Positions 9,189 to 22,016 of a DNA stretch of 22,016 nt are shown in pieces (the first letter of the stretch is position 1; each line of letters begins with the position of its first letter). The translations under genes and the position numbers were made by a program. The notes under the pieces are model-generated. The model ran no database searches, had not been told where the DNA came from, and was given only the letters and a program-made list of their open reading frames with translations. Source of the DNA: Lachnospiraceae bacterium (lineage in GTDB: Bacteria > Bacillota_A > Clostridia > Lachnospirales > Lachnospiraceae); assembly GCA_017652545.1 (NCBI GenBank), contig JAGCAV010000377.1, positions 1 to 22,016 of the forward strand, read 5' to 3'.

Positions 9189-10415
9189 TCAGGCAGGTCT
9201 CCGGCTCTCTCTGTATTTCTTCGGTGTCATACCCACGTAGCTCTTGAAGACCTTTGTAAAATAACTCTGATCCTCAAATCCGCACAGGTTGCCGATATCC
9301 ACGATTTCCAGACTGCCGTCAGAGAGCAGCAGCCTGCTCTTTTCGACGCGTATCCGGTTGATATAGTTGAAGACAGACTCACCGGTCTCCCGCTTAAAGA
9401 TCTGGCACAGATAGTTCCTGCTTAAGTTTACCTGCCCGGCCAGCTCGTCAAGCGTGAGCTTCTCCTGATAGTGTTTACCGATATACCACTTGATCCGGTA
9501 AATGGTCTTCGCATGCCTGGACCGGTCCTCCGCAAAGGATGTACGGATAAAGCGCTGCATGACCGTGGACAGCCATGCGCTCAGATCCTCGATCGACGAG
9601 AACAGTTCAACCTGCCTGACGCTGCCGCGCATCAGGATATCGATCTCCTGTTCATCGGCTCCCGCATCCAGAGCCGCCCTCGAGATCACGATCAGAAGTT
9701 CCCTGATCCTGGGTTTGATTTCCTCAAGGCTTGTATTGTTTGCCACATAAATATAGGCAAGGATCTGGTTCAGAACGGTCTGCGCGTGTTCCCTGTCCGA
9801 ATGCCGGATTGCCAGGCGCAGCTCCCTCTCCTGCAGGATCGGATAATTATAGTAGTCCGTCTGTGCATGCGTTTTCATTTTCTCGGCATAGACCTGATTC
9901 AGGAATGATTCCTGACTGAACAGGTAGCGGCCTGCCTTTCCGTACACGTCGCCGGAAATCCCGGAGGCGACCGAAAGCATGATCCGGGACAGGCTCTGCA
10001 CCACTTCAGGCGGATAACACGGTCTTGGCGCCACGATCCTGCGAAGTTCGGCGTCAGATATTCCCACAAGAATATCCTCCATACTTCCCATACAGAGCGG
10101 ACCTGCCGCGATTCCTCCTGCCAGATTTCCCTCATGGTCCGAGACATAGGCACATACCATGACCATCTCAAGGTCGCAGAAAAAAATATACAGCCCGTCC
10201 CACCGGTAAGCCTCCCGCATCCCTCTCAGAAAGGCCCGGCGTCCGTGGCAAAGCGCATGCAGATGCCTCTCACATGTTTCACACAGATCGATGCTCTCCT
10301 GCTCCTGAAAATACAGTTTCTCTTCTGACAGATCCACCCCGGCGCAGGCGATCCCCGTGAGAGTCTTCAGATGACGGCAGTACTCCTCGATTTTTTGCAG
10401 CAATGCTTTTTCCAT
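9189..10415 (-). CDS. AraC-family transcriptional regulator with PocR-like sensory domain
   Basis: This is a 408-residue DNA-binding regulator. Residues about 1-170 resemble the PocR ligand-binding domain, with a cysteine cluster C45, C48 and C56 (DLCETCERHLHALCHG), a YIFFCDLEMVMVCAYV strand region and a GGIAAGPL segment. The C-terminal 100 residues form the AraC double helix-turn-helix: LTLDELAGQVNLSRNYLCQI is the first helix pair, IVDIGNLCGFEDQSYFTKVF the second, and GMTPKKYRE the signature end. It is the first gene of the catabolic operon, 44 bases before the GH78 gene, and lies just after the intrinsic terminator of the methyltransferase gene. It probably senses a sugar or sugar phosphate and controls this operon. 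The start has a CGGAGA site about 8 bases upstream. No confident -35/-10 pair was found in the 58 bases between the terminator and the start. Confidence 0.92.
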   Translation of the reverse strand: MEKALLQKIEEYCRHLKTLTGIACAGVDLSEEKLYFQEQESIDLCETCERHLHALCHGRRAFLRGMREAYRWDGLYIFFCDLEMVMVCAYVSDHEGNLAGGIAAGPLCMGSMEDILVGISDAELRRIVAPRPCYPPEVVQSLSRIMLSVASGISGDVYGKAGRYLFSQESFLNQVYAEKMKTHAQTDYYNYPILQERELRLAIRHSDREHAQTVLNQILAYIYVANNTSLEEIKPRIRELLIVISRAALDAGADEQEIDILMRGSVRQVELFSSIEDLSAWLSTVMQRFIRTSFAEDRSRHAKTIYRIKWYIGKHYQEKLTLDELAGQVNLSRNYLCQIFKRETGESVFNYINRIRVEKSRLLLSDGSLEIVDIGNLCGFEDQSYFTKVFKSYVGMTPKKYRESRRPA

Positions 10416-10541: not shown

Positions 10542-11570
10542 TCACGCGATCAGGTCAAGCAGCCTCTGTCTGTAATAGTAAGAATGAACCGTATCAAAAA
10601 AGGCATCGATGTTTTCAAATTCTGTCAACGGGGGAATATCACATCCCGACGAGACCATAAAGTTTCTGTAGCGTCCGCATGCTTCCAGCAGACGGACGGT
10701 GGCATTGCGTACAGACTGAGGCGTACCGTTGCGGAATTGTTTGGCAGGGCTGACATTGCCCATGGCAATACAGTCTTCCGGGATCAGTTTCATCATCTGA
10801 GCCATATCAATGGAATCTCCGAAGTGGAAGACCCGGCAGCCCGTATCCAGAATGGTATCGATCAGCTGGATCGTATAGTTCCCGCAGTTATGATAGATAA
10901 TGAGAAAGTTCTGATCCTGCAGCGTTTCCACGATCTCCCTTACATACTCTGTCGAGAACTCCTGCGCAAGCTGCGGAGAGAGGACCCCGGCAAGCGGTTC
11001 CGCCATGATCACTCCCTGCGCCCCGATCTCCTTGTAGGCTTTCACATACTCCAGCAGGAAATCCGTCACCTTGCGCAGTACGCTGTGGACCAGCTCCGGT
11101 TCCTCATAGCAGAGCATCATGATCTCATTGATGTCCATCAGCCTTCCGGCCAGGGAAAACGGGCCGGTGCAGCCGCCGAACACCGGGCGGTCCGTGATCA
11201 GCTTCATCGCCTTTTTGGTTCCTTCCACATAGATTCCGGTCCGGCCATCCCCTACCTTCGGGATCTTCAGCTTTTCGACATCATCCTCATCCTCTATGAT
11301 CCTTCCGATGATCGTGGGAACCTCATCGGCCTGATACACGGTGCGGGAGCCGAAAGCCTCCGCCTCCACAGACAGATCCATAAAGCTGGGCACACCCGGC
11401 ATATCATACTTGTCGGCCAGCATCTTCATGCCCATGGCCTGATAATTGCTGTTCGTGACCAGCTCCTTGACCGTCACGTACAGCAGCTGCACGCTGGGGA
11501 AGGAAAGCAGCGGAAATGCCTTCCTGTCTTCCAGATAAATCATCCTCTCAATCCATTTGTACATATTCAT
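10542..11570 (-). CDS. Uroporphyrinogen decarboxylase (URO-D) family protein, MtaA/MtbA-like methyltransferase
   Basis: This 342-residue protein has the HemE/URO-D TIM-barrel fold, which also covers zinc-dependent corrinoid:thiol methyltransferases such as MtaA and MtbA. The zinc motif is kept: H227 and C229 in IIYHNCGNY, and C310 in VSSGCDIPP. This points to methyl transfer rather than porphyrin decarboxylation. Other family segments are FGGCTGPFSLAGRLM (131-145), VIMAEPLAGVLSPQ (187-200) and GDSIDM (251-256). The length equals that of MtaA-type enzymes. No corrinoid protein or reactivation enzyme is seen in the window. The gene is transcribed alone, with AGGAGG 8 bases before its ATG, an AT-rich leader upstream and an intrinsic terminator downstream. 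Next to glycosidases it could act on methyl groups of O-methylated sugars or aglycones, or it may be unrelated one-carbon metabolism. Confidence 0.82.
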   Translation of the reverse strand: MNMYKWIERMIYLEDRKAFPLLSFPSVQLLYVTVKELVTNSNYQAMGMKMLADKYDMPGVPSFMDLSVEAEAFGSRTVYQADEVPTIIGRIIEDEDDVEKLKIPKVGDGRTGIYVEGTKKAMKLITDRPVFGGCTGPFSLAGRLMDINEIMMLCYEEPELVHSVLRKVTDFLLEYVKAYKEIGAQGVIMAEPLAGVLSPQLAQEFSTEYVREIVETLQDQNFLIIYHNCGNYTIQLIDTILDTGCRVFHFGDSIDMAQMMKLIPEDCIAMGNVSPAKQFRNGTPQSVRNATVRLLEACGRYRNFMVSSGCDIPPLTEFENIDAFFDTVHSYYYRQRLLDLIA

Positions 11571-11719: not shown

Positions 11720-13708
11720 CTATGCGCGTGCGCGAATCCTTTGAAAGACCGGCAGCGTATCCAGCGGGGCCGGCACAGTTTGCCAGCTGCCGCCCGGGAA
11801 CACCTCATCCCCGATGCAGTATGTCCAGTCTGCCCCCTCCGGAAGGTAGACCCTTCTCTCCCGCTCTCCGGCGTGCAGGACCGGGGCAACAAGGTATGCA
11901 TCCCCGAACATATACTCATCCTCGATCAGCCAGGCCGCCTCATCGTCCGGAAATTCGTAGAACAGCGTGCGCATGACCGGACTGCCCATCCTGTGAGCCT
12001 CCTGCATCAGTGTGCGGATATAGTCACGCATCTCCTCGCGGATCCGCAGGTATTTCGTGCAGATCTCATAGACTTCTTCCCCGTAGCTCCAGACCTCATT
12101 CGCTGCGCCGGACCGGCACGACGCGCCGCCGCCTTCACCCAGCTGCGGCTGTCTCGGCTCACGATCGCCGTGCAGACGCATGACGGGACAGTATGCGCCC
12201 CACTCGAACCACCGGACAAACAGCTCGCGGAACTGAGGATCATCCGGATTTCCTCCGTGGAAACCGCCTATATCCGTCGTCCACCACGGAATACCGGCCA
12301 TGCCCATGTTCAATCCCGCAGCAAGCTGATTTCGCATGCTTTCAAAACTGGATGCGATATCCCCCGACCAGACCAGCGCCCCGTACCTGGCACTTCCGGC
12401 CCACGCGCACCGAAGCAGGTTCACGACCTGTGTCTGCCCTTCCGAGGTCATGCCATCATAAAACGCCTTCGCATAACAGAGGGGATAGATGTTTCCGATC
12501 TCCAGGTCTGTCCCCATGTGGTACCTGTAATTGTCAAACTCGTAGAGAGAATACTCCGGTTCGGCCTCATCCAGCCAGAAAATGTGAATACCTTTGTCGT
12601 AATAATGCTGCTTCACTTTCTGCCATACATATTCCCGCGCTTCGGGGTTTGTCGCGTCAAAATGAATGGTCGTTCCCTGAAAATCCAGTCCGCACCGGTA
12701 CCCCCGGTCAGTCCTGATCAGGTATCCCTTCTCCAGCATTTCCGCGTAGTTTTCACTTTCCCGGTCCACTGTCGGCCAGATGGAGACCATCAGCCTGATT
12801 CCCATCGAATCCAGCTCCCGGACCATGCCTTCGGGATCCGGCCAGAAGACCGGGTCAAACTTCCATTCGCCCTGTCTGGGCCAGTGGAAGAAATCCACAA
12901 CGATCACATCCAGCGGCAGGTTCCGCCGCCGGTACTCACGGGCGACGGAAAGCAGTTCCTCCTGGGTCTGATAACGCAGCTTGCACTGCCAGAAACCAAG
13001 TCCGTATTCCGGCATCATCGGAACGGTGCCGGTCACGGCGGCATAGGCATGCAGGATCTGTGCCGGCGTATCGCCCGCCACAAACCAGTAGTCCAGCAGT
13101 TTCGTACTGTATGCCTCAAAGCTCATGACATTCTTCCCGAACACGGCTCTGCCGACGGCCGGGTTGTTCCAGAGCATGCCATATCCAAGGGAAGACAAAA
13201 AGAAGGGCACGCTCGCCTGGGAGTTTCTCTGTGCCAGTTCCAGGTCTGTCCCCTTCAGGTTCAGATATCTTTGCTGATACTGCCCCATTCCATAGATCCG
13301 CTCCTGCTCATCCAGCGATTCAAAACGCATGGTCAGATGATAATCGCCGGACCGGACCGGTGCAAATTCCCGCCCCTCAACCTCCAGCGCGCTGCAGGAC
13401 GGATCTGTCACATCCCGCCTGTTGCGCCAGAACTCCTCGAGCAGGGTGGTTCCGTCCTGCCGGACCATACGAAGTTTTCCGGCCGCTGTGATCTGAGCAG
13501 TCAGTATTCCGTTTGTGATGCTTCCCCCGCTCTTTGTGATCACGATCTTCGGTTCAACCCCTGCCGGCTTAAGCAGCGCCATATCCTCTTCAGGCATCGC
13601 GGCGCATTTTGTGGCACGTACCCGGAGCGCATTCTCCCCCCAGGGTTCGATCCACATCTCCTCTGCATCAAACCGGAAAACCAGCCGGCCTTTACATTCG
13701 TATATCAT
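11720..13708 (-). CDS. GH31 family glycoside hydrolase, probable alpha-xylosidase, cytoplasmic
   Basis: This 662-residue protein belongs to glycoside hydrolase family 31 (retaining exo-alpha-glycosidases: alpha-glucosidase, alpha-xylosidase, alpha-galactosidase). The N-terminal beta domain (about 1-230) leads to the (beta/alpha)8 barrel. Barrel motifs are MPEYGLGFWQCKLRYQT (232-248), VDFFHWPRQGEWKFDP (271-286), the nucleophile D380 in IFWLDEAEPEYS, and the acid/base D450 in LVWSGDIASSFESMRNQLA. GIPWWTTDIGGFHGG and VMRLHGDREP follow. WLDEAEPE and the HWPRQGEW loop recall bacterial alpha-xylosidases, but the specificity is inferred. There is no signal peptide, so it acts in the cytoplasm. GGAAGGAG lies 6 bases before the ATG, and the gene starts 18 bases after the GH127 stop, which suggests co-transcription with GH127 and the binding protein. 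Confidence 0.9.
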   Translation of the reverse strand: MIYECKGRLVFRFDAEEMWIEPWGENALRVRATKCAAMPEEDMALLKPAGVEPKIVITKSGGSITNGILTAQITAAGKLRMVRQDGTTLLEEFWRNRRDVTDPSCSALEVEGREFAPVRSGDYHLTMRFESLDEQERIYGMGQYQQRYLNLKGTDLELAQRNSQASVPFFLSSLGYGMLWNNPAVGRAVFGKNVMSFEAYSTKLLDYWFVAGDTPAQILHAYAAVTGTVPMMPEYGLGFWQCKLRYQTQEELLSVAREYRRRNLPLDVIVVDFFHWPRQGEWKFDPVFWPDPEGMVRELDSMGIRLMVSIWPTVDRESENYAEMLEKGYLIRTDRGYRCGLDFQGTTIHFDATNPEAREYVWQKVKQHYYDKGIHIFWLDEAEPEYSLYEFDNYRYHMGTDLEIGNIYPLCYAKAFYDGMTSEGQTQVVNLLRCAWAGSARYGALVWSGDIASSFESMRNQLAAGLNMGMAGIPWWTTDIGGFHGGNPDDPQFRELFVRWFEWGAYCPVMRLHGDREPRQPQLGEGGGASCRSGAANEVWSYGEEVYEICTKYLRIREEMRDYIRTLMQEAHRMGSPVMRTLFYEFPDDEAAWLIEDEYMFGDAYLVAPVLHAGERERRVYLPEGADWTYCIGDEVFPGGSWQTVPAPLDTLPVFQRIRARA

Positions 13709-13726: not shown

Positions 13727-15706
13727 TCACTCATGCAGCCACACACGCATTTCATTTTCTCCCCGGTTGGCCCATGCATAGTAGGGGATCAGCCGGATCT
13801 TCTGCGGACTGTAGTGAAAAGCACTCCGGCCTGCTGTGTACAGACCTGTCTGCTGTGAAGTCAGCCGCAGCCCCTCACACTCGATCATGCCTGTTCCGCC
13901 CAGCAGATCATCCTCCCAGCTGTAATGCAGAGGCGCGTCCTCCGGCAGATACAGGTTGTGCAGGTCCGCTCCGTTGTCCACTTCCTCCGCGCAGAACACC
14001 TGCGGTCCCCTGCAGACGGCGACCTGCCGCGCATCCGCAGATACTTTCGGGTTTGCGTACCATCTTTTCGGTGTCATCTCCAGATCAAGCCCGATCACAT
14101 GCCCGCCCGGTTCCAGGGTCAGGTACCAATAGCCGTCCCGTATCGCTGTTCCGGAAGCATGTGTGCCGTCATGCCAGGACAGTATCTTCTGTCCGTTAAG
14201 CCATCCGCTTCCTCCCTCCGCCCAGCCGGGAATCCGAATTCCGATCCGCCTGCTCTGTGCGCCTTCCCGGCGGACCCGGATACAGATCTTTCCGGAGCGG
14301 GGATAGTCTGTCTCCATCTCCAGATCCGTCCTCCCGTCCGGATCATCGATGCGCAGCCGGGAGGCGATAAACAGATTGACCAGGATCTGTTCCTGTTCCG
14401 CCAGACAGATATACTGCTCCAGAGATGTCAGGAGCCTGGCAAGGTTGGGCGGACAGCAGGCACAGCCCAGCCACTGGGGACGAACACATTTCACATGGCT
14501 CTTCCCGGGGTCCAGGCGGGATTTCGCCGGAACAGCCTCCAGGGGGTTGACATAGAAAAAATGCTGCCCGTCCAGGGCCATGCCCGCAAGCACCGTATTG
14601 AAGAGGGCGCGCTCCATCACGTCAGCATATTCTGCCCTCGGAGCCAGACGAAGCATCTGTGAGGCAAAGAACACCAGCCCGACGGAGGCACAGGTCTCGC
14701 AGTACATGGTATCGTTGGGCAGGTCATAGTCCAGCGTAAAGGCCTCTCCGGTTACGGTCGAACCGATGCCGCCGGTAATGAACATCCGCCGGTCCACCAG
14801 GTTTCTCCAGATCGCTTCACAGGCGCGCCGCGCGTCTTCATCCCCCGTGGAGGCAGCCAGATCGGCCATGGCTGTACACAGATAGACCAGCCTGACGGCA
14901 TGGCCTTCGGCACTCCTTTGTTCCACAGCCGGTGCCTGGACCTGATAATATTTCAGCGGGAACCGGTTCAGTCCGCCGATAATGGGGCTGCCCCCATCCT
15001 CCCGGATCAGTCTGTCAAACAGGTCAGGATCCTGTCCCCGCTCATGAATAAAGAAGGCAGCCAGCTTCAGATACCTTGCCACGCCGGTCAGATGATACAG
15101 CTTCAACAGGCCGATCTCGACTTCCTCGTGTCCGTCGACAGCCCGCAGCTTACCCTCCTCCGTTCCGAAAACAGCTTCAAGATGATCAGCAAGCTTCACC
15201 GCCGTCTCCAGTACCAGCCGGTTTCCCGTTGCCGTATGGTATGACACGGCCGCCTCCAGGAAATGACCGGCGCAGTACAGCTCATGGCTCTCGCCAAGAC
15301 GTCTGTAGCGGCGGTCCGGTTCCCTGATCGTAAAATACGTGTTCAGATAGCCGTCCGGCTGCTGGGCGGCAGCGATCAGCTCCACCACACTGTCAGCCTG
15401 TGCCCGCAGCTTCTCATCGGGTGTCTCCCGCAGGGATCCGGCAACCGCCTCCAGCCATTTATACACGTCGCTGTCCTGGAATACCCATCCGTAATGATCC
15501 CCTTTCGCTCTCCCGGCAGCGATCCGGAAATTCTCGATCGCGTGGCTCTTCTCGCTGGGGATCCCCGGATCATCCCGCTCCTTCTCGATCGTGATATCCG
15601 CCCGGTCATTCAGCACATCCCACTGATAGGGGATCATTTTTACGCGAACCAGCTTCCGGGTGTGACCCCAGAAGCTGTCCGTAATGGTTATCTGCATTTT
15701 CTGCAT
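13727..15706 (-). CDS. GH127 family (DUF1680) beta-L-arabinofuranosidase-like enzyme, cytoplasmic
   Basis: This 659-residue protein matches glycoside hydrolase family 127, zinc-dependent enzymes whose nucleophile is a cysteine. All catalytic positions known from Bifidobacterium HypBA1 are visible with nearly the same numbering: acid/base E321 (TVTGEAFTLD), zinc ligands E337 and C339 (YCETCAS), and C417/C418 (GCACCPPNLARL), where C417 is the expected nucleophile. The (alpha/alpha)6 barrel fills about residues 10-440, and beta-sandwich domains follow. The known family activities are beta-L-arabinofuranosidase and the release of aceric acid from rhamnogalacturonan II. No signal peptide is present, so the substrate must be imported. 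The start at 15706 has a CGGAG site about 10 bases upstream. It lies 37 bases after the binding-protein gene and 18 before GH31. Confidence 0.93.
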   Translation of the reverse strand: MQKMQITITDSFWGHTRKLVRVKMIPYQWDVLNDRADITIEKERDDPGIPSEKSHAIENFRIAAGRAKGDHYGWVFQDSDVYKWLEAVAGSLRETPDEKLRAQADSVVELIAAAQQPDGYLNTYFTIREPDRRYRRLGESHELYCAGHFLEAAVSYHTATGNRLVLETAVKLADHLEAVFGTEEGKLRAVDGHEEVEIGLLKLYHLTGVARYLKLAAFFIHERGQDPDLFDRLIREDGGSPIIGGLNRFPLKYYQVQAPAVEQRSAEGHAVRLVYLCTAMADLAASTGDEDARRACEAIWRNLVDRRMFITGGIGSTVTGEAFTLDYDLPNDTMYCETCASVGLVFFASQMLRLAPRAEYADVMERALFNTVLAGMALDGQHFFYVNPLEAVPAKSRLDPGKSHVKCVRPQWLGCACCPPNLARLLTSLEQYICLAEQEQILVNLFIASRLRIDDPDGRTDLEMETDYPRSGKICIRVRREGAQSRRIGIRIPGWAEGGSGWLNGQKILSWHDGTHASGTAIRDGYWYLTLEPGGHVIGLDLEMTPKRWYANPKVSADARQVAVCRGPQVFCAEEVDNGADLHNLYLPEDAPLHYSWEDDLLGGTGMIECEGLRLTSQQTGLYTAGRSAFHYSPQKIRLIPYYAWANRGENEMRVWLHE

Positions 15707-15743: not shown

Positions 15744-16943
15744 TCACTCTGCCAGGATCTCATCAATCGTTGCCTGCGCCTCCGCGGCTGCGTCAGCCGG
15801 CTCGCTCTCGCCGGTGATGACCTTGTTGAAGGCAAGGGAGATGGCATCGGAGATGCTCGGCCAGTTGGGCAGCGGGCCCCTGGCATTGGCATACTGCATT
15901 TCTTCGACGAATGCTTCGTAAACCGGATCTCCTTCAAACTGTCCGTCCGCGATGGTGGAGTCGGCGGAGATATAGCCCATCGCATTCATCATATACAGGC
16001 ATGTATCCCTGCTGGTTGCGTATTCCAGGAACTTGATGGCTGCTTCCTCGTTGCCGCCCGCGATCACCGCGTAGTTCTCGCCGCCAAGTCCGGAGGCCTG
16101 CTGTGCATCCTGGGGGATCGGCGCCACATTCCACTTCAGATCCGGAACTTCACCGCGCATGGTCGGGATCTGCCAGGTTCCGTTGATCATCATGGCAAGG
16201 TTCTCCGCGATAAACTGATGCATGGTATCGCCCTGTGTCCAGTTGATGGCTTCCTTGGTCATCGCGCCTGCATCGACCAGCTCCTTGATAAAGGTCATGG
16301 CCTTGATGCCGCCCTCGGAGTTCATCTCGTACGCGGTGGCGCCGGTCGACCATACCCAGGGCAGGAAGTTGAAGGTTCCTTCCTCATTCTGCAGGCTGCT
16401 GAACGCGAAACCGGAAACCGTATCTGTTGTGGTCGCTTTTGCGACTTCCAGCAGTTCATCCCATGTCGTGGGCACTTCGCAGCCGGCTGCCGCCAGCATG
16501 TCTTCATTATAGAACAAAAGCAGATCATTGCTGCCGAAGGGCACACCGTAGAGCCTTCCGTCCAGCGTGCAGGAATTGATCGGTCCCTCATAGTAGGTGC
16601 TCACATCGAAGCGGTCCGTCAGATCCGCGAAGATTCCCATGGCCGCATAGGCAGCGTGATCGGGATTGTCCAGAATGACCAGATCCGGCAGCTCATCAGC
16701 AGAGGCGCCGATGGAAAGCTGTTTTTTGAAATCAGCGAAGGGAACATACTTCGCTTCCACTGTAATGCCTTCCTGTGAACCGTTGAATTCGTCGATAATG
16801 TGGGCCAGCGCTTCCTGATGCCCGACTGTCTCCCAGTAATACCAGATCGTCACATCCCCGGAAGCTTCCTCTGCAATGGCGTTCCCCGCCAGCAGGGCGC
16901 CGGCCAGAACAGAAACAGCAAGTAATGAAGCTATTTTCTTCAT
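15744..16943 (-). CDS. ABC transporter extracellular sugar-binding protein (family 1), lacking the lipobox cysteine
   Basis: This 399-residue protein is a MalE/UgpB-type solute-binding protein of the CUT1 class. Family segments are VTIWYYWETVGHQEALAHII after the signal, PDLVILDNPDHAAYAAMG, and the GRLYGVPFGSNDLLLFYNEDML hinge region. The signal peptide reads MKKIASLLAVSVLAGALLAG and is followed by NAIAEEASG. A normal Gram-positive lipobox would be L-A-G-C, but here the +1 residue is Asn, so lipid anchoring cannot occur at this site. An AIA|E signal peptidase I cut is possible instead. I chose the ATG at 16943 because AGGAGG stands 9 bases upstream and the signal peptide then begins properly; in-frame codons back to 16991 lie in the leader. 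It has its own promoter, heads a unit with GH127 and GH31, and must serve the permease pair encoded upstream. Confidence 0.93.
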   Translation of the reverse strand: MKKIASLLAVSVLAGALLAGNAIAEEASGDVTIWYYWETVGHQEALAHIIDEFNGSQEGITVEAKYVPFADFKKQLSIGASADELPDLVILDNPDHAAYAAMGIFADLTDRFDVSTYYEGPINSCTLDGRLYGVPFGSNDLLLFYNEDMLAAAGCEVPTTWDELLEVAKATTTDTVSGFAFSSLQNEEGTFNFLPWVWSTGATAYEMNSEGGIKAMTFIKELVDAGAMTKEAINWTQGDTMHQFIAENLAMMINGTWQIPTMRGEVPDLKWNVAPIPQDAQQASGLGGENYAVIAGGNEEAAIKFLEYATSRDTCLYMMNAMGYISADSTIADGQFEGDPVYEAFVEEMQYANARGPLPNWPSISDAISLAFNKVITGESEPADAAAEAQATIDEILAE

Positions 16944-17025: not shown

Positions 17026-17054
17026 ATTATATATTTCTCCGTTCCCGGTAAAAA
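17026..17054 (-). promoter_or_regulatory. Promoter of the binding-protein/GH127/GH31 unit
   Basis: On the minus strand a perfect TATAAT (17031-17026) is preceded by a 17-base spacer and a weak -35 (TTTTTA, 17054-17049). The weak -35 fits activator dependence. The shared 26-base motif lies upstream at the same distance as in the permease promoter. The leader to the ATG at 16943 is about 75 bases. Confidence 0.65.
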
Positions 17055-17067
17055 CTCAAAAAAACAC

Positions 17068-17093
17068 GAAAAAGGGGGAAAGTTCTAAAGTGT
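17068..17093 (-). promoter_or_regulatory. Candidate YesN-type regulator site (copy 2)
   Basis: The minus-strand 26-mer, given in two parts, is ACACTTTAGAACT then TTCCCCCTTTTTC. It matches the copy upstream of the permease genes (20747-20772) at 22 of 26 positions. Its TTTAGAA begins exactly 35 bases before the -35 box in both promoters. The TAG of TTTAGAA is also the stop codon of the sensor kinase gene (17087-17085), so the site overlaps coding sequence. Confidence 0.6.
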
Positions 17094-18824
17094 GTTGGCT
17101 GACTCTGCCGGATAGATCAGTGTGATGGCGGTTCCCTGCCCCGGCTCGCTCGCTATATCAAAGGTTCCCAGCCCGCCGGTATACATTCTGAACCGGGTGA
17201 TGGCATTGTGAAGGCCCATATGTTCCTTTTCCTCTCCGAAGGCGGTACCGTCGTTCTCCCGGATCCGCTGCAGGACATCAGGCGGGATGCCCTTCCCGTT
17301 GTCCCGGACGACGATGCGGATCATATTCCCCTCACGGGTTATGATCACATCCAGCACATACCGGCCCTGCTCCGAGCCGAACCCGTGAATGATGGAATTC
17401 TCCACGAACGGCTGCAGCAGGAGCTTGTGGATCTTCTCCTCCATCAGCTCGGGCTCCACATGAATGTTGCAGACAAACGTGTTCTTCAGCCTGTACTGCT
17501 GCAGATAGACATAGCGCTTCAGCCACTCGATCTCATCCCGGATGGGCACCTCGCTTCCGTAGTCCGTGATCGCGTACCGCAGGATCGTAGCCAGGGAGTT
17601 GATCGCATTGCTGATATCAAACGCGTCCTTTTCAATGGCCATCCAGTTGATGGTATCCAGGGTATTGTACAGGAAATGCGGATTGATCTGCGCTTCCAGC
17701 GCCTTCAGCTCGGCCTGGATCCGCTTCTCGTTTGCCTCCCTCTCCTTCTCCTGGGCATTCTCCAGCTTTGTGACGGACCGGTTGAATTCCTCTGCCACCG
17801 TGTCCAGCTCCGCGGGCCTGTCCTCATCTTCCGGCACCCGCACGCTCAGATCCCCGCTTCCCACCTGCTGCATGTATGTGACCACACGGTTTACGGAAGA
17901 AACCAGCCTGCCGGTCTGGCGCAGCACCAGCATGACGGCAACCAGAACAGCCGTAAGACAGATGCCCGCGATCAGACCCAGGTTCCAGGTAAGGGTACGC
18001 CCATAACGGCTCTGATCCGTTACGCTGACGATCTTCCATCCAAGGGCCTCATCCGTATAGGTGTAGATTCCGGACTTTGTCAGCTCCTGATCCATATGCT
18101 CTCCGATCCGGCTCTTGTCCGGATGCGAGATGACCCGTCCGTCCTCTCCCAGCAGACAGCAGTAATCCGTCTGTCCGTCCCCGGACGCATTCAGAAGCAG
18201 CGTATCGCCAAGCAGCGATTCATCCAGGCTGATCACGATGATCCCGCACTGCTTTTCCAGGTTCCGGTAATCGATGATCCTGTGGGCAATGTGGAAAAGG
18301 TAGTAGTCACTGCCCGCGAAACGGGTCGCGTATTCCGTGGGAAAATAGTGGTACCGGCTGTCGGAGGAGATCTGCCGGTACAGTTCTTCCTTCGGGAGTG
18401 AGAAATGATCCAGCCAGGGGTTCTCATAGGTGGCCGAGGTGATGCGGTGACAGGTGATCATCATGTCGTTTTCGGTGATGACCGTAATGGCCCGGATATA
18501 ATCCCTGCTGTTCATCACAGCACTCAGATACCGCCGCATCTGATTCACAGTTACGGCGGTATCCTCATCCCGGCTGAGTTTGTCTGTCCAGGAAACCATG
18601 CTGTCATCCGTATACATCTGGAGCAGGATATCCCTGCAGGCTTCCAGACGCAGGTTCATGTTCTGATCCGCCTGCTCCAGGCTCATCTGCATCATGACCC
18701 GCGTATTGTTCTGAATAAGCTGAAAGGTATTGTACAGCAGAATGACCGTGATCAGCAGGATCGGCACGATCGACGTAAGCACAAAGATGCGGATCAGATT
18801 CCTGCTCAGACTTTTCTTCCTCAT
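17085..18824 (-). CDS. YesM-type sensor histidine kinase
   Basis: This 579-residue membrane kinase senses an extracellular signal and phosphorylates the YesN-type response regulator encoded upstream. A transmembrane helix (about 9-32) is followed by a large extracytoplasmic sensor region (about 33-278, Cache-like), a second helix (about 279-302), a HAMP linker (about 303-355), and a coiled segment. The HisKA_7TM/His_kinase domain has H383 in the INPHFLYNTLD motif. The ATPase follows, with QPFVENSIIHG (471-481) and DNGKGIP (508-514). This arrangement is the YesM/LytS class, usually paired with AraC-type regulators for oligosaccharide uptake in Firmicutes. The ATG at 18824 has AGGGGA about 8 bases upstream. 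It lies 58 bases after the second permease, so it is probably co-transcribed with the transporter, and the receptor may sense the same sugar or the loaded binding protein. Confidence 0.94.
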   Translation of the reverse strand: MRKKSLSRNLIRIFVLTSIVPILLITVILLYNTFQLIQNNTRVMMQMSLEQADQNMNLRLEACRDILLQMYTDDSMVSWTDKLSRDEDTAVTVNQMRRYLSAVMNSRDYIRAITVITENDMMITCHRITSATYENPWLDHFSLPKEELYRQISSDSRYHYFPTEYATRFAGSDYYLFHIAHRIIDYRNLEKQCGIIVISLDESLLGDTLLLNASGDGQTDYCCLLGEDGRVISHPDKSRIGEHMDQELTKSGIYTYTDEALGWKIVSVTDQSRYGRTLTWNLGLIAGICLTAVLVAVMLVLRQTGRLVSSVNRVVTYMQQVGSGDLSVRVPEDEDRPAELDTVAEEFNRSVTKLENAQEKEREANEKRIQAELKALEAQINPHFLYNTLDTINWMAIEKDAFDISNAINSLATILRYAITDYGSEVPIRDEIEWLKRYVYLQQYRLKNTFVCNIHVEPELMEEKIHKLLLQPFVENSIIHGFGSEQGRYVLDVIITREGNMIRIVVRDNGKGIPPDVLQRIRENDGTAFGEEKEHMGLHNAITRFRMYTGGLGTFDIASEPGQGTAITLIYPAESANTL

Positions 18825-18882
18825 AACCGATTCCCCTGTACGATACCGGCCAGCCTCACTCCGTTTCTGTCCGTGCGTACCC

Positions 18883-19731
18883 TTACCCCTTCACAGCGCC
18901 GTTGGTCATGCCGGCGATGATGTACTTCTGCATGAAGATGAAGATCAGTGTGACGGGAATGATCGTCACGATGGCAAACGCAGCCAGATAACTCCATCTT
19001 GTCCCGTACTGCCCCATGAAATTGAAGATCCCGGCCGTGATGGGACGCTTCTGCTGGTCCAGGATGAACGTCATGCCATAAGCCAGATCTCCCCATCCGT
19101 ACAGGAAGGAAAAGATCGCACAGACGATCACGCCGGGCTTTGCGATCGGGACCAGCACCCGCATAAAGGCACTGAAGCGGTTGCATCCGTCTATATAGGC
19201 CGCTTCCTCCAGTTCTTTGGGCACCGAAGCGAAATAGTTTTTCAGGATCAGCACCGAGAACGGAATGCCGATCGTCGCGTCGGCAAGGATCGCCGCCCAC
19301 CAGCTGTTGTACACATGCATCTTCTTGAACATGATAAACATCGGCGTAAGCAGAACGGACACCGGCAGCATCTGCGTGACCAGGAAGCCCAGAAGCATGG
19401 CATTCCTCCCACGGAACCGGTATCTGGCTATGGCGTAGGAGGCCGGGACCGCCAGGAGCACCGCGATCAGCATGGCTCCGGCGGAGATCAGGAAGCTGTT
19501 GCCAAAGGACTGGAACATATTGAAGTCCCCGGTCTCCACCTGCGCCGCGTAGGATTTCGTGTTCAGCACATGCGGATAAAATGTCGGCGGATATTGGAAG
19601 ATCTCCTTCTCCGTTTTCAGGGAGGTGATCAGTGTCCAGAACAGCGGGAACATCAGGACCGCCAGGATCAGCAGCGCCGCAATGCACAGCAGCACGTTTT
19701 TTCTTCCGGTCAGTTTTTTCTCTTCGCCCAT
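18883..19731 (-). CDS. Sugar ABC transporter permease, inner-membrane subunit 2 (AraQ/MalG type)
   Basis: This 282-residue permease is the second membrane subunit of a CUT1 importer. It has about six hydrophobic helices, beginning with VLLCIAALLILAVLMFPLFW (13-32). The EAA loop that contacts the ATPase reads ELEEAAYIDGCNRFSAFMRV (about 173-192), and the C-terminal QKYIIAGMTNGAVKG ending is typical of the MalG/AraQ class. The ATG at 19731 overlaps the TGA of permease 1 (TGATG), and AGGGGAGG lies 7 bases before it; a GTG one codon earlier is the less likely start. No ATPase gene is in the window, so a shared MsmK-type ATPase is expected to power it. Confidence 0.94.
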   Translation of the reverse strand: MGEEKKLTGRKNVLLCIAALLILAVLMFPLFWTLITSLKTEKEIFQYPPTFYPHVLNTKSYAAQVETGDFNMFQSFGNSFLISAGAMLIAVLLAVPASYAIARYRFRGRNAMLLGFLVTQMLPVSVLLTPMFIMFKKMHVYNSWWAAILADATIGIPFSVLILKNYFASVPKELEEAAYIDGCNRFSAFMRVLVPIAKPGVIVCAIFSFLYGWGDLAYGMTFILDQQKRPITAGIFNFMGQYGTRWSYLAAFAIVTIIPVTLIFIFMQKYIIAGMTNGAVKG

Positions 19732-20630
19732 CACTCTTCCTCCCCTCTCATGGTGATCCGCAGATACAGAATGCCGACCATAAGGAGAATGACCAGCAGC
19801 ATATTTGCCACGGCAGACCCCACACTGTAATTGAACAGTTCAAACGACTGTTTATAGGAGTAAGTGGACAGAAGATGCGTCGAATTCACCGGTCCTCCGC
19901 TTGTCATGACATAGACCAGATCGTACACCTTAAAGGTATAGATGAAGCCCAGCACAAGGACCGACTCGATCGTGTGGCGCAGGAGCGGGACCGTAATGCG
20001 GAAGAACGCCTGCCTTCCGTTTGCCCCGTCGATGGCCGCGCTTTCATACAGGTCCTGCGGAATGGTCGTCAGGCCGGTGGAGATCAGGATCGTATTGAAC
20101 GGGATGCCGATCCAGACGTTCGCCATGATCACCACCAGCATCGCCGTCCGGGAACTGGTGAGCCATTCTATATTCTTTGAGATGAGGCCGGCGGAACGCA
20201 GAAAATAATTGACCACGCCGATATCCGTCGCGAACATCAGCTTGAAGATCAGCGCCGTCACCGTCATGGGAATCATCCAGGGGATCATCAGCAGACCCCT
20301 CACCGGCTTCGCGACCGAAAAATTCTTGTTGAACAGGACTGCCAGCGCGAATCCGATCAGGAACTGAAACACCAGACATGATATCGTAAACACCAGCGTG
20401 TTCTTCAGCGCCCGCAGAAATACATCATCGTGAAACAGTTTCACATAGTTTTTCAGACCGATAAAATGCTTTGTGCCGCGCGACAGATTTGCAACCGTCA
20501 CATCCTGCAGGCTGAGAATGATGTTGCTGATGATCGGGTATCCCACAAAGACCAGCATGTAGATGAATGCCGGCAGCGCAAACAGCAGCCCGATATTGTC
20601 ATACCGGAAAAACCGTTTGATCCTGTCCAT
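19731..20630 (-). CDS. Sugar ABC transporter permease, inner-membrane subunit 1 (UgpA/LplB type)
   Basis: This 299-residue permease is the first membrane subunit of a CUT1 oligosaccharide importer. It begins MDRIKRFFRYDNIGLLFALP, with a first helix at about 14-40 and six helices in all. Its EAA loop reads LYESAAIDGANGRQAFFRIT (194-213). The ATG at 20630 was chosen because GGGAGG lies 6 bases before it; an in-frame start at 20702 would lie beside the -10 box of the promoter. It heads the transcription unit permease 1, permease 2, sensor kinase, and its stop overlaps the start of permease 2. Its promoter carries the putative regulator site, and the leader contains a strong hairpin. Partner proteins are the binding protein at 15744-16943 and an unlinked ATPase. 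Confidence 0.94.
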   Translation of the reverse strand: MDRIKRFFRYDNIGLLFALPAFIYMLVFVGYPIISNIILSLQDVTVANLSRGTKHFIGLKNYVKLFHDDVFLRALKNTLVFTISCLVFQFLIGFALAVLFNKNFSVAKPVRGLLMIPWMIPMTVTALIFKLMFATDIGVVNYFLRSAGLISKNIEWLTSSRTAMLVVIMANVWIGIPFNTILISTGLTTIPQDLYESAAIDGANGRQAFFRITVPLLRHTIESVLVLGFIYTFKVYDLVYVMTSGGPVNSTHLLSTYSYKQSFELFNYSVGSAVANMLLVILLMVGILYLRITMRGEEE

Positions 20631-20651
20631 GATATGCCTCCCTTCTGATGT

Positions 20652-20676
20652 CTGCACGGGCCCGGCTGCCCTGCAG
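20652..20676 (-). promoter_or_regulatory. Strong hairpin in the 5' leader of the permease mRNA
   Basis: The leader RNA can fold CTGCA plus GGGC against GCCC plus TGCAG, a 9-pair GC-rich stem with one bulged G and a 6-base loop. It ends about 10 bases before the GGGAGG ribosome site of permease 1. There is no following T tract, so it is not an intrinsic terminator; it may stabilise the mRNA or tune translation. Confidence 0.45.
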
Positions 20677-20704
20677 TCTGCCTGATCTGTTCCTTCTGCC
20701 AAAG

Positions 20705-20733
20705 ATTATAAGACAGGTCTTTGCCGCTGTTGA
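20705..20733 (-). promoter_or_regulatory. Promoter of the permease/sensor kinase unit
   Basis: On the minus strand TCAACA (20733-20728, 4 of 6 to TTGACA) and a perfect TATAAT (20710-20705) are separated by 17 bases. The leader to the permease ATG at 20630 is about 70 bases. The shared 26-base motif lies just upstream. Confidence 0.7.
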
Positions 20734-20746
20734 GAAGAGAAGTCTT

Positions 20747-20772
20747 GAAAAGGGGGGACAATTCTAAACTGT
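20747..20772 (-). promoter_or_regulatory. Candidate YesN-type regulator site (copy 1)
   Basis: The minus-strand 26-mer, given in two parts, is ACAGTTTAGAATT then GTCCCCCCTTTTC. It lies 8 bases after the response regulator stop codon. It matches the copy before the binding-protein promoter at 22 of 26 positions, and both are 35 bases (TTTAGAA to -35) from their promoters. The predicted position, roughly -48 to -73 from the transcription start, suits an AraC-type activator. Confidence 0.6.
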
Positions 20773-20780
20773 TTTTCCTC

Positions 20781-22016
20781 TTACCGATGGGTTTTCCGGT
20801 AATTCGTCGGCAGCAGGCCGGTCACCTCCTTGAAGACCTTGCTGAAGTATTTTGGATCCGCATACCCGCTCTGCTCCGCGATCTCATAAAGCTTCAGGCT
20901 TGTCCCGCACAGAAGCTCCTTGGCTCTGGAGATTCTGTAATTCTTCAGATATGTACTGAACGTAACCCCCATCTCCCTGTGGAACAGAGTGCCAAGATAT
21001 TCCGGTGTCATGTTCAGCCGGTTTCCGATCTCTTCCAAAGTGATCCCGGTCTGATAGAATTCATGAATCATGCTCTGTACACGCTTCACGGTCAGGTGCG
21101 TGATGCTCTCATCCTCATTTTCTGCCCTGATATGTGAAAGGAGCATTTCCGCTGCCTCCGCCAGGTCGCAGCGCCGCTTCGCGTTCATGATTCTGCTGAG
21201 CAGTTCCTGCTGGTCAAGCTTTCCGGTGTCCAGTCTGCCGATCTCCTTCGCCATACCGATCACAGCCCAGAGAAAACGGACATAGCTTTCCTTGATCTCC
21301 TTCGGCGCATAGACCTTCCCGTCCCGGAAAGAATTCTGAAAGCGCTTCAGCAGATCCCGTACCCTTGGCATCTCATCCGCGCAGACAGCCATCCGGATCT
21401 GCGTCTCCAGCTCGATCGGGTACACACAGGATGTCGTCTGGATCCGGGTGATCTTCGGATAGAAAATGATGACCCCGTCATCCAGTGAGATATTCCACTC
21501 CAGGTATGGGAAGAGTTTCAAAAAGCTCTCATACAGGTCTTCAGGCCCGCCGGCCTGTGTCCATCCCACAGCGATCTGCTGTGGTGTGCCCTCCAAAATC
21601 TGCATCTGCAGCCACCGCTCCAGGTCAGATGCATCCTCCACACCATACACGACGCCCACCATGCAGCCGCGGATCTCCTGCTCAGGGATCACGAAGGAAA
21701 TACCGGGATAGCAGGACAGCATATGCCTGAAAAACCGCCGTACTTTTTCGTTCCTGTCCTCTCCTGTCTCGCCGGTATACACACACAGAATGCACAGGGG
21801 AGACTCCGGCTCCACACCGTATTGACGCGCAAGATAATCCAGAAGCGCCGCGTCCGGCTTTGACCGTCCGGAGATCAGGCTGTGAAGCACTTCCTCCAGT
21901 GTTCCTGCCTGACGCGGTTTCTCCTGCCGGTCCCTGGCCAGCTGCTCCTCAACATTCTCCAGTGCCTGCAGAAACTCTCCGTAGGCGATCGGCTTGAGAA
22001 GATATTCCGTAACGCC
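20781..22016 (-). CDS. YesN-type response regulator (receiver + AraC HTH), 5' end outside window
   Basis: The gene runs off the right edge, and 411 residues are visible. The first visible residues, GVTEYLLKPIAYGEFLQAL, are the end of a receiver domain with the conserved lysine-proline (KP) pair that follows its last strand, so the phosphorylated aspartate lies outside the window. A middle region of about 270 residues is typical of long YesN proteins. The C-terminal AraC domain carries ITLEEIGNRLNMTPEYLGTL and KLYEIAEQSGYADPKYFSKV as its two helix-turn-helix units, and it ends TGLLPTNYRKTHR. A GTG at 21890 could be mistaken for a start, but the open frame continues upstream with receiver sequence. 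It should be phosphorylated by the YesM-type kinase at 17085-18824 and activate the permease and binding-protein promoters. Confidence 0.93.
   Translation of the reverse strand, partial: GVTEYLLKPIAYGEFLQALENVEEQLARDRQEKPRQAGTLEEVLHSLISGRSKPDAALLDYLARQYGVEPESPLCILCVYTGETGEDRNEKVRRFFRHMLSCYPGISFVIPEQEIRGCMVGVVYGVEDASDLERWLQMQILEGTPQQIAVGWTQAGGPEDLYESFLKLFPYLEWNISLDDGVIIFYPKITRIQTTSCVYPIELETQIRMAVCADEMPRVRDLLKRFQNSFRDGKVYAPKEIKESYVRFLWAVIGMAKEIGRLDTGKLDQQELLSRIMNAKRRCDLAEAAEMLLSHIRAENEDESITHLTVKRVQSMIHEFYQTGITLEEIGNRLNMTPEYLGTLFHREMGVTFSTYLKNYRISRAKELLCGTSLKLYEIAEQSGYADPKYFSKVFKEVTGLLPTNYRKTHR

Follow-up and report, generated by a model that had tools for sequence, protein, structure and literature searches.

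Class II operators of the AraC family, such as AraC I1-I2 and its relatives, consist of two tandem half-sites, the downstream one lying at the -35 position of a promoter with a weak -35 element. According to the available excerpts of the respective reports, the pneumococcal YesN (Streptococcus pneumoniae TCS09) has a candidate motif made up of AATTC plus C and T stretches (PMC11034029), and XydR of Clostridium (Ruminiclostridium) cellulolyticum, an AraC-type response regulator encoded beside its kinase, binds upstream DNA of carbohydrate-enzyme genes in gel shifts (PMC3572039). The regulators listed for Roseburia and E. rectale loci include AraC-CheY response regulators, with no operator reported in the excerpts of that paper (PMC5320581). 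Here, we analysed a stretch of 22,016 nucleotides from a Lachnospiraceae bacterium (contig JAGCAV010000377.1 of assembly GCA_017652545.1; hereafter the window), in which an earlier note had described a 26-bp motif shared by two promoters as a likely YesN-type regulon signature. One promoter lies before sugar permease genes and the other before a sugar-binding protein gene, in a cluster that also encodes a YesM-type kinase and a YesN-type regulator. The shared sequence is real, and it forms the upstream half of a conserved element of ~40 bp. We estimate a probability of roughly 0.8 that this element is the operator of the linked YesN-type regulator, which would activate both units by a class II mechanism.

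The two minus-strand 26-mers, at 17093-17068 (ACACTTTAGAACTTTCCCCCTTTTTC) and 20772-20747 (ACAGTTTAGAATTGTCCCCCCTTTTC), are identical at 22 of 26 positions, as direct reading confirmed, and at both copies a perfect TATAAT begins 58 nt past the first T of TTTAGAA (17031-17026 and 20710-20705). When the 26-mers of the window were compared all-against-all, two pairs had at least 22 matches; these copies were the sole same-strand pair, the second pair being on opposite strands. A consensus pattern with up to three mismatches matched only these two copies in the window (0.01 matches expected in shuffles), a count that is circular because the pattern was derived from the copies themselves. With a held-out matrix trained on relatives, the window and its nearest relative (L001) being left out, the binding-protein copy scored 26.1 bits (at 17089) and the permease copy 9.7 bits (at 20768); the next separate position reached 1.0, shifted registers of the binding-protein copy being disregarded, and no score above 7.1 bits arose in 300 Markov resamples of the window. 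In the same scan, neither the catabolic genes nor the URO-D gene of the window had a site, in line with the absence that the earlier note had reported for the catabolic operon and a methyltransferase gene. The identical promoter geometry claimed there holds for the TATAAT spacing, but the positions 17 nt from TATAAT that had been read as -35 hexamers are TTTTTA and TCAACA, which by eye match TTGACA at just 3/6 and 4/6 positions. Neither window promoter has a good -35 hexamer, and both therefore probably depend on an activator. The TAG of TTTAGAA at 17087-17085, within the operator of the binding-protein promoter, is also the stop codon of the kinase gene.

Conservation was assessed in the 80 best-ranked of 514 loci, retrieved from named public genomes with a kinase alignment that was built from 26 of the 120 proteins listed. 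Their labels are mostly Lachnospiraceae, with some metagenome-assembled genomes labelled otherwise. A loose 16-base pattern with up to two mismatches gave 73 matches, including the window's two; some were clearly background, and in many a TATAAT-like box followed at a distance of 57 or 58 nt. A 43-column matrix, trained on the regions before binding-protein and permease orthologs, exceeded 14 bits in 115/166 upstream regions (the window's two included) and at none of 2,826,692 control positions in reversed or complemented sequence, where 5 positions exceeded 12 bits and 10 exceeded 10 (maximum 13.8). The regions without a site were chiefly internal permeases of binding-protein-led units, genes with starts placed too far upstream, and contig ends. 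Across whole loci the trained matrix found 142 sites, and 79/80 loci carry the element, whose absence from orthologous loci with close YesN homologs the earlier note had named as grounds for giving up its proposal.

The conserved element reads WTTAGAnnnTTCnnCCTTTTTnAGnTTTnTyGnGTTTT and is followed by ~19 nt and then TATAAT. With the first T of TATAAT set as -12, it spans about -70 to -32 and reaches the -35 position. Among 91 distinct sites, a -10 box with at most one mismatch lies at 57 nt in 59 sites and at 58 nt in a further 16 (75/91 together), and any other offset tested (44-70) accounts for at most 5; counted over all sites, the distance to a TATAAT-like box is exactly 57 or 58 nt in 107/142. 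A single base between the halves of the element seems to account for the difference between the 57- and 58-nt classes, but the box on which this test relied occurred in just 2 sites of the 58 class. The two halves resemble direct repeats with a lag of 19-20 bp, but the column correlation does not pin the repeat down. Near one contig end, two operator copies occur with their starts 44 bp apart (L024:7694-7738).

Each promoter class was also scored with a matrix trained on the other at a threshold of 8 bits, the sets sharing no sites but taking their alignment register from joint training. In loci without an adjacent kinase-regulator pair, the permease-trained matrix found 47/48 binding-protein promoters (median 26 bits), and in loci with such a pair it found 23/28 (median 25 bits); the binding-protein-trained matrix found 43/49 permease promoters (median 29 bits). 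Two of the reversed-sequence controls gave 0/28 and 0/49, and the threshold is lenient because 5/48 regions reached at least 8 bits in the third (maximum 10.1).

The placement of the element follows the arrangement of the genes. In 42/80 loci, as in the window, the order is regulator, permeases, kinase and then binding protein, and in 30/80 an adjacent kinase-regulator pair is followed by the binding protein and permeases; the regulator lies outside the retrieved stretch in 7 of the remaining loci, and 1 has another order. The element precedes the binding protein in both orders and the permeases in the first. In the second order, a weaker element stands before the kinase, exceeding 8 bits in 15/29 cases compared with 0/51 for internal kinases. 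The element thus marks the heads of transcription units. Fourteen pre-kinase sites exceed 12 bits, in 14 loci between L055 and L079, and these operator copies suggest autoregulation. The element is rare before the regulator (1/41, L007), and in L091, where a contig begins, one further site precedes a gene with a receiver domain.

The regulon looks local, in that most genomes have between one and three close sites, which lie at the orthologous locus; the proposed YesN-type signature is supported in this amended form rather than as a wide regulon. In the genome of the nearest relative, just the two sites of the locus were good, and a wide regulon was rejected there on 8 matches at three mismatches versus 12 in the reversed-pattern control. 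A stricter family pattern, made from these same relatives, gave 16 matches in eight further genomes, 13 of them at the orthologous locus, with 1 match for the reversed pattern. Extra matches in L105 and L106 lie inside open reading frames (ORFs) and were taken as chance. An extra site at L100:1501, in the same genome as L080, is flanked by a GH29-like and a GH39-like gene and lies 6 kb away from the orthologous one; it scores 13.9 bits, has TATAAT at 56 nt and is probably real.

Specificity was further assessed around paralogous kinases. The PF06580 family, which also takes in LytS-type kinases, has 57 matches in two genomes (38 + 19), and the survey comprised 38 regions covering 40/57 of them, including every match outside genome G006. 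The two orthologous regions reached 40.9 bits and 41.7 bits; the second of them also contains the 13.9-bit site of L100. Among the 36 other regions the best score was 13.1 bits, and all others were at or below 7.6. The 13.1-bit site, on the minus strand at 2582 of L135, precedes an ORF whose start is lipoprotein-like.

A YesN-type regulator with at least 38% identity is encoded in 73/80 loci, with none in the retrieved stretch of the other 7. We compared 74 orthologs (those of the 73 loci and the window) with 28 YesN-like ORFs of two genomes, two of which are themselves orthologs. In the first recognition helix, T, E, Y, G and H (columns 51, 53, 54, 56 and 60) are kept in 71-74 of the 74 orthologs, and K103, near the second recognition helix, in 74/74. 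These columns vary among the 28 YesN-like ORFs except for Y54, which is kept in 23/28 and hence is not specific. The regulator of L135, the region with the best non-orthologous site, has the top-scoring non-orthologous DNA-binding domain (43% identity). Linkage, specificity and conservation together strongly suggest binding by YesN, so that the conserved element is very probably where the two-component regulator of this cluster docks on the DNA.

In the mechanism that we propose, the YesM kinase would sense an oligosaccharide and YesN would become phosphorylated. Phosphorylated YesN, acting as a putative dimer on direct repeats, would then bind two tandem half-sites, TTAGAnnnTTCnnCC and, ~19-20 bp on, nAGnTTTnTyGnGTTTT. 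With the downstream half ending at -35, YesN would replace the missing -35 contact and recruit RNA polymerase, as in class II activation. The genes activated would be those of the binding protein and the GH127 and GH31 enzymes on the one hand, and of the permeases and kinase on the other. Because the element could raise the kinase in both layouts, kinase induction would give positive feedback through the sensor.

Several observations weigh against this mechanism. Of the 142 sites, 35 either run off the contig or show no -10 box of one mismatch or fewer at the 57- or 58-nt spacing. The permease-promoter copy of the window has a diverged downstream half and scores just 9.7 bits, and the direct-repeat column correlation is weak and unsharp (0.39 at lag 19, 0.38 at lag 17 and 0.34 at lag 18). 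On the 3.9-kb contig of L009, the one locus of the 80 that lacks the element, no site was found in the 161 nt after the kinase, a stretch that does not include the permease upstream region. The passes in the 48-region reversed control belong here as well. Lastly, covariation with the motif columns tops out in kinase, permease and binding-protein columns, above the DNA-binding domain. Covariation carries no regulator-specific signal because shared descent swamps any such signal, and it was dropped as support for YesN binding.

That covariation did not single out YesN would also be expected if the operator belonged to another regulator, either the PocR-AraC-type protein encoded at 9189-10415, a second AraC-type gene in the window, or an unlinked factor, with the YesN linkage coincidental. 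We consider this unlikely, given that PocR-type relatives occur in just 4/80 loci (L006, L073, L078 and L080) against 73/80 for the YesN-type regulator, and that the element accompanies the same kinase-regulator pair in other genomes. It is quite unlikely that the operator instead represses, with YesN or another factor blocking RNA polymerase at -35 until the sugar comes; the downstream half does extend into the -35 region, but the lack of a good -35 in either window promoter fits activator-dependent promoters, and AraC-type regulators are mostly activators. Chance or a constraint of another kind, for instance from the stop codon of the kinase gene, from T-tracts or from an intrinsic terminator, is a most improbable source of the match: the TAG of one window copy is that stop codon and T-rich promoter regions raise scores, with 5/48 reversed regions above 8 bits in one control, but the same element lies downstream of different genes in the two layouts, a terminator or palindrome was rejected for want of good inverted symmetry (best column correlation 0.22), no control position exceeded 14 bits, and the held-out promoter-class tests speak strongly against it.

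The cluster around these promoters lies on the minus strand in the order response regulator, permease, an ORF in the second permease position, YesM-type kinase, binding protein, GH127, GH31 and URO-D family gene (Table 1). Beyond the URO-D gene, the same strand continues with the PocR-AraC-type regulator, GH78 and sugar-catabolic genes. The full-length L001 ortholog of the response regulator has a receiver domain and HTH_18, and the start of permease 1 was picked from its ribosome-binding site and the 900-bp L001 ortholog. To judge from the enzyme families, the cluster could plausibly serve an oligosaccharide that bears alpha-xylosyl and beta-L-arabinofuranosyl groups, for example solanaceous-type xyloglucan fragments. 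A 55-bp stretch of the kinase gene (17662-17716) matches the Subdoligranulum plasmid OY725838.1 at 96%; a matrix scan of a 16-kb stretch of this plasmid found no operator (best -12.4 bits).

Table 1 Operators, promoter boxes and genes of the cluster in the window.
Feature	Position	Strand	Remarks
Operator, binding-protein promoter	17050..17092	-	43 aligned columns; 26.1 bits held-out; conserved in orthologs
Boxes of binding-protein operator	upstream TTTAGAACTTTCCCCC from 17089; downstream ...TTTTTTTGAGTTTTT	-	
TATAAT -10 box, binding-protein promoter	17026..17031	-	58 nt from operator start; 57/58 spacing fixed in relatives
Operator, permease promoter	20729..20771	-	43 aligned columns; TTTAGAATTGTCCCCCC from 20768; 9.7 bits held-out
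TATAAT -10 box, permease promoter	20705..20710	-	58 nt from operator start
YesN-type response regulator	20781..22016	-	C-terminal 411 aa; HTH_18, HTH_AraC; N-terminus outside window; proposed binder
ABC sugar permease 1	19731..20630	-	ATG 20630; heads permease-permease-kinase unit
ORF in second permease position	18821..19687	-	no Pfam match at E 0.001; role by position only
YesM-type histidine kinase	17085..18824	-	dCache, HAMP, His_kinase, HATPase
Sugar-binding protein	15744..16943	-	likely start ATG 16943, with ribosome-binding site; nearest solved relative 4qrz, 220 bits
GH127 beta-L-arabinofuranosidase-like enzyme	13727..15706	-	nearest solved relatives GH127 beta-L-arabinofuranosidases, 617 bits
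GH31 alpha-xylosidase-like enzyme	11720..13708	-	nearest solved relative alpha-xylosidase MeXyl31, 865 bits
URO-D family gene	10542-11570	-	between glycosidase genes and PocR-AraC-type regulator
PocR-AraC-type regulator	9189-10415	-	second AraC-type gene of window

With 91 distinct examples and rigid spacing, the 40-bp operator provides a ready matrix for regulon prediction and a clean footprinting target, and the operator set is a starting point for deducing operator specificity from recognition helices. YesM-family kinases are numerous in such bacteria, as the PF06580 matches in the two genomes indicate. A tentative and rather doubtful extension is that Firmicutes YesN-type regulators share one operator design, in which the recognition helix of each subfamily sets its own variant. 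This design would comprise TTAG, TTC, a C-rich block, a T-run, a second half at -35 and rigid -10 spacing. If so, the operators of many uncharacterised YesMN-ABC systems would be readable from sequence, and the group would also take in the L135 paralog and the pneumococcal AATTC/C/T motif.

In searches of an open-licence full-text library, we found no description of this motif and no published operator of such a kind for Lachnospiraceae, and among the literature matches listed for TCCCCCTTTTT no title concerned such a promoter. The element differs from class II AraC-family operators in its half-site lag of ~19-20 bp, which is weakly supported, and to our knowledge their sequences are unrelated to it. 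The common sequences of XydR that the excerpts give from Table 3 of the report are unlike TTAGAnnnTTCnnCCTTTTT (PMC3572039). The nearest published resemblance found is the candidate motif of the TCS09 YesN. In the excerpts of that report, ccdA-1 of a redox operon serves as the input target and no fixed promoter spacing is reported, unlike here; compared by its text description, the pneumococcal motif is similar in that a C-rich block and then TTTTT follow TTC, which is often ATTC, in our consensus (PMC11034029). The operator described here is new and well supported, and it is attached to a type of regulator that is already known.

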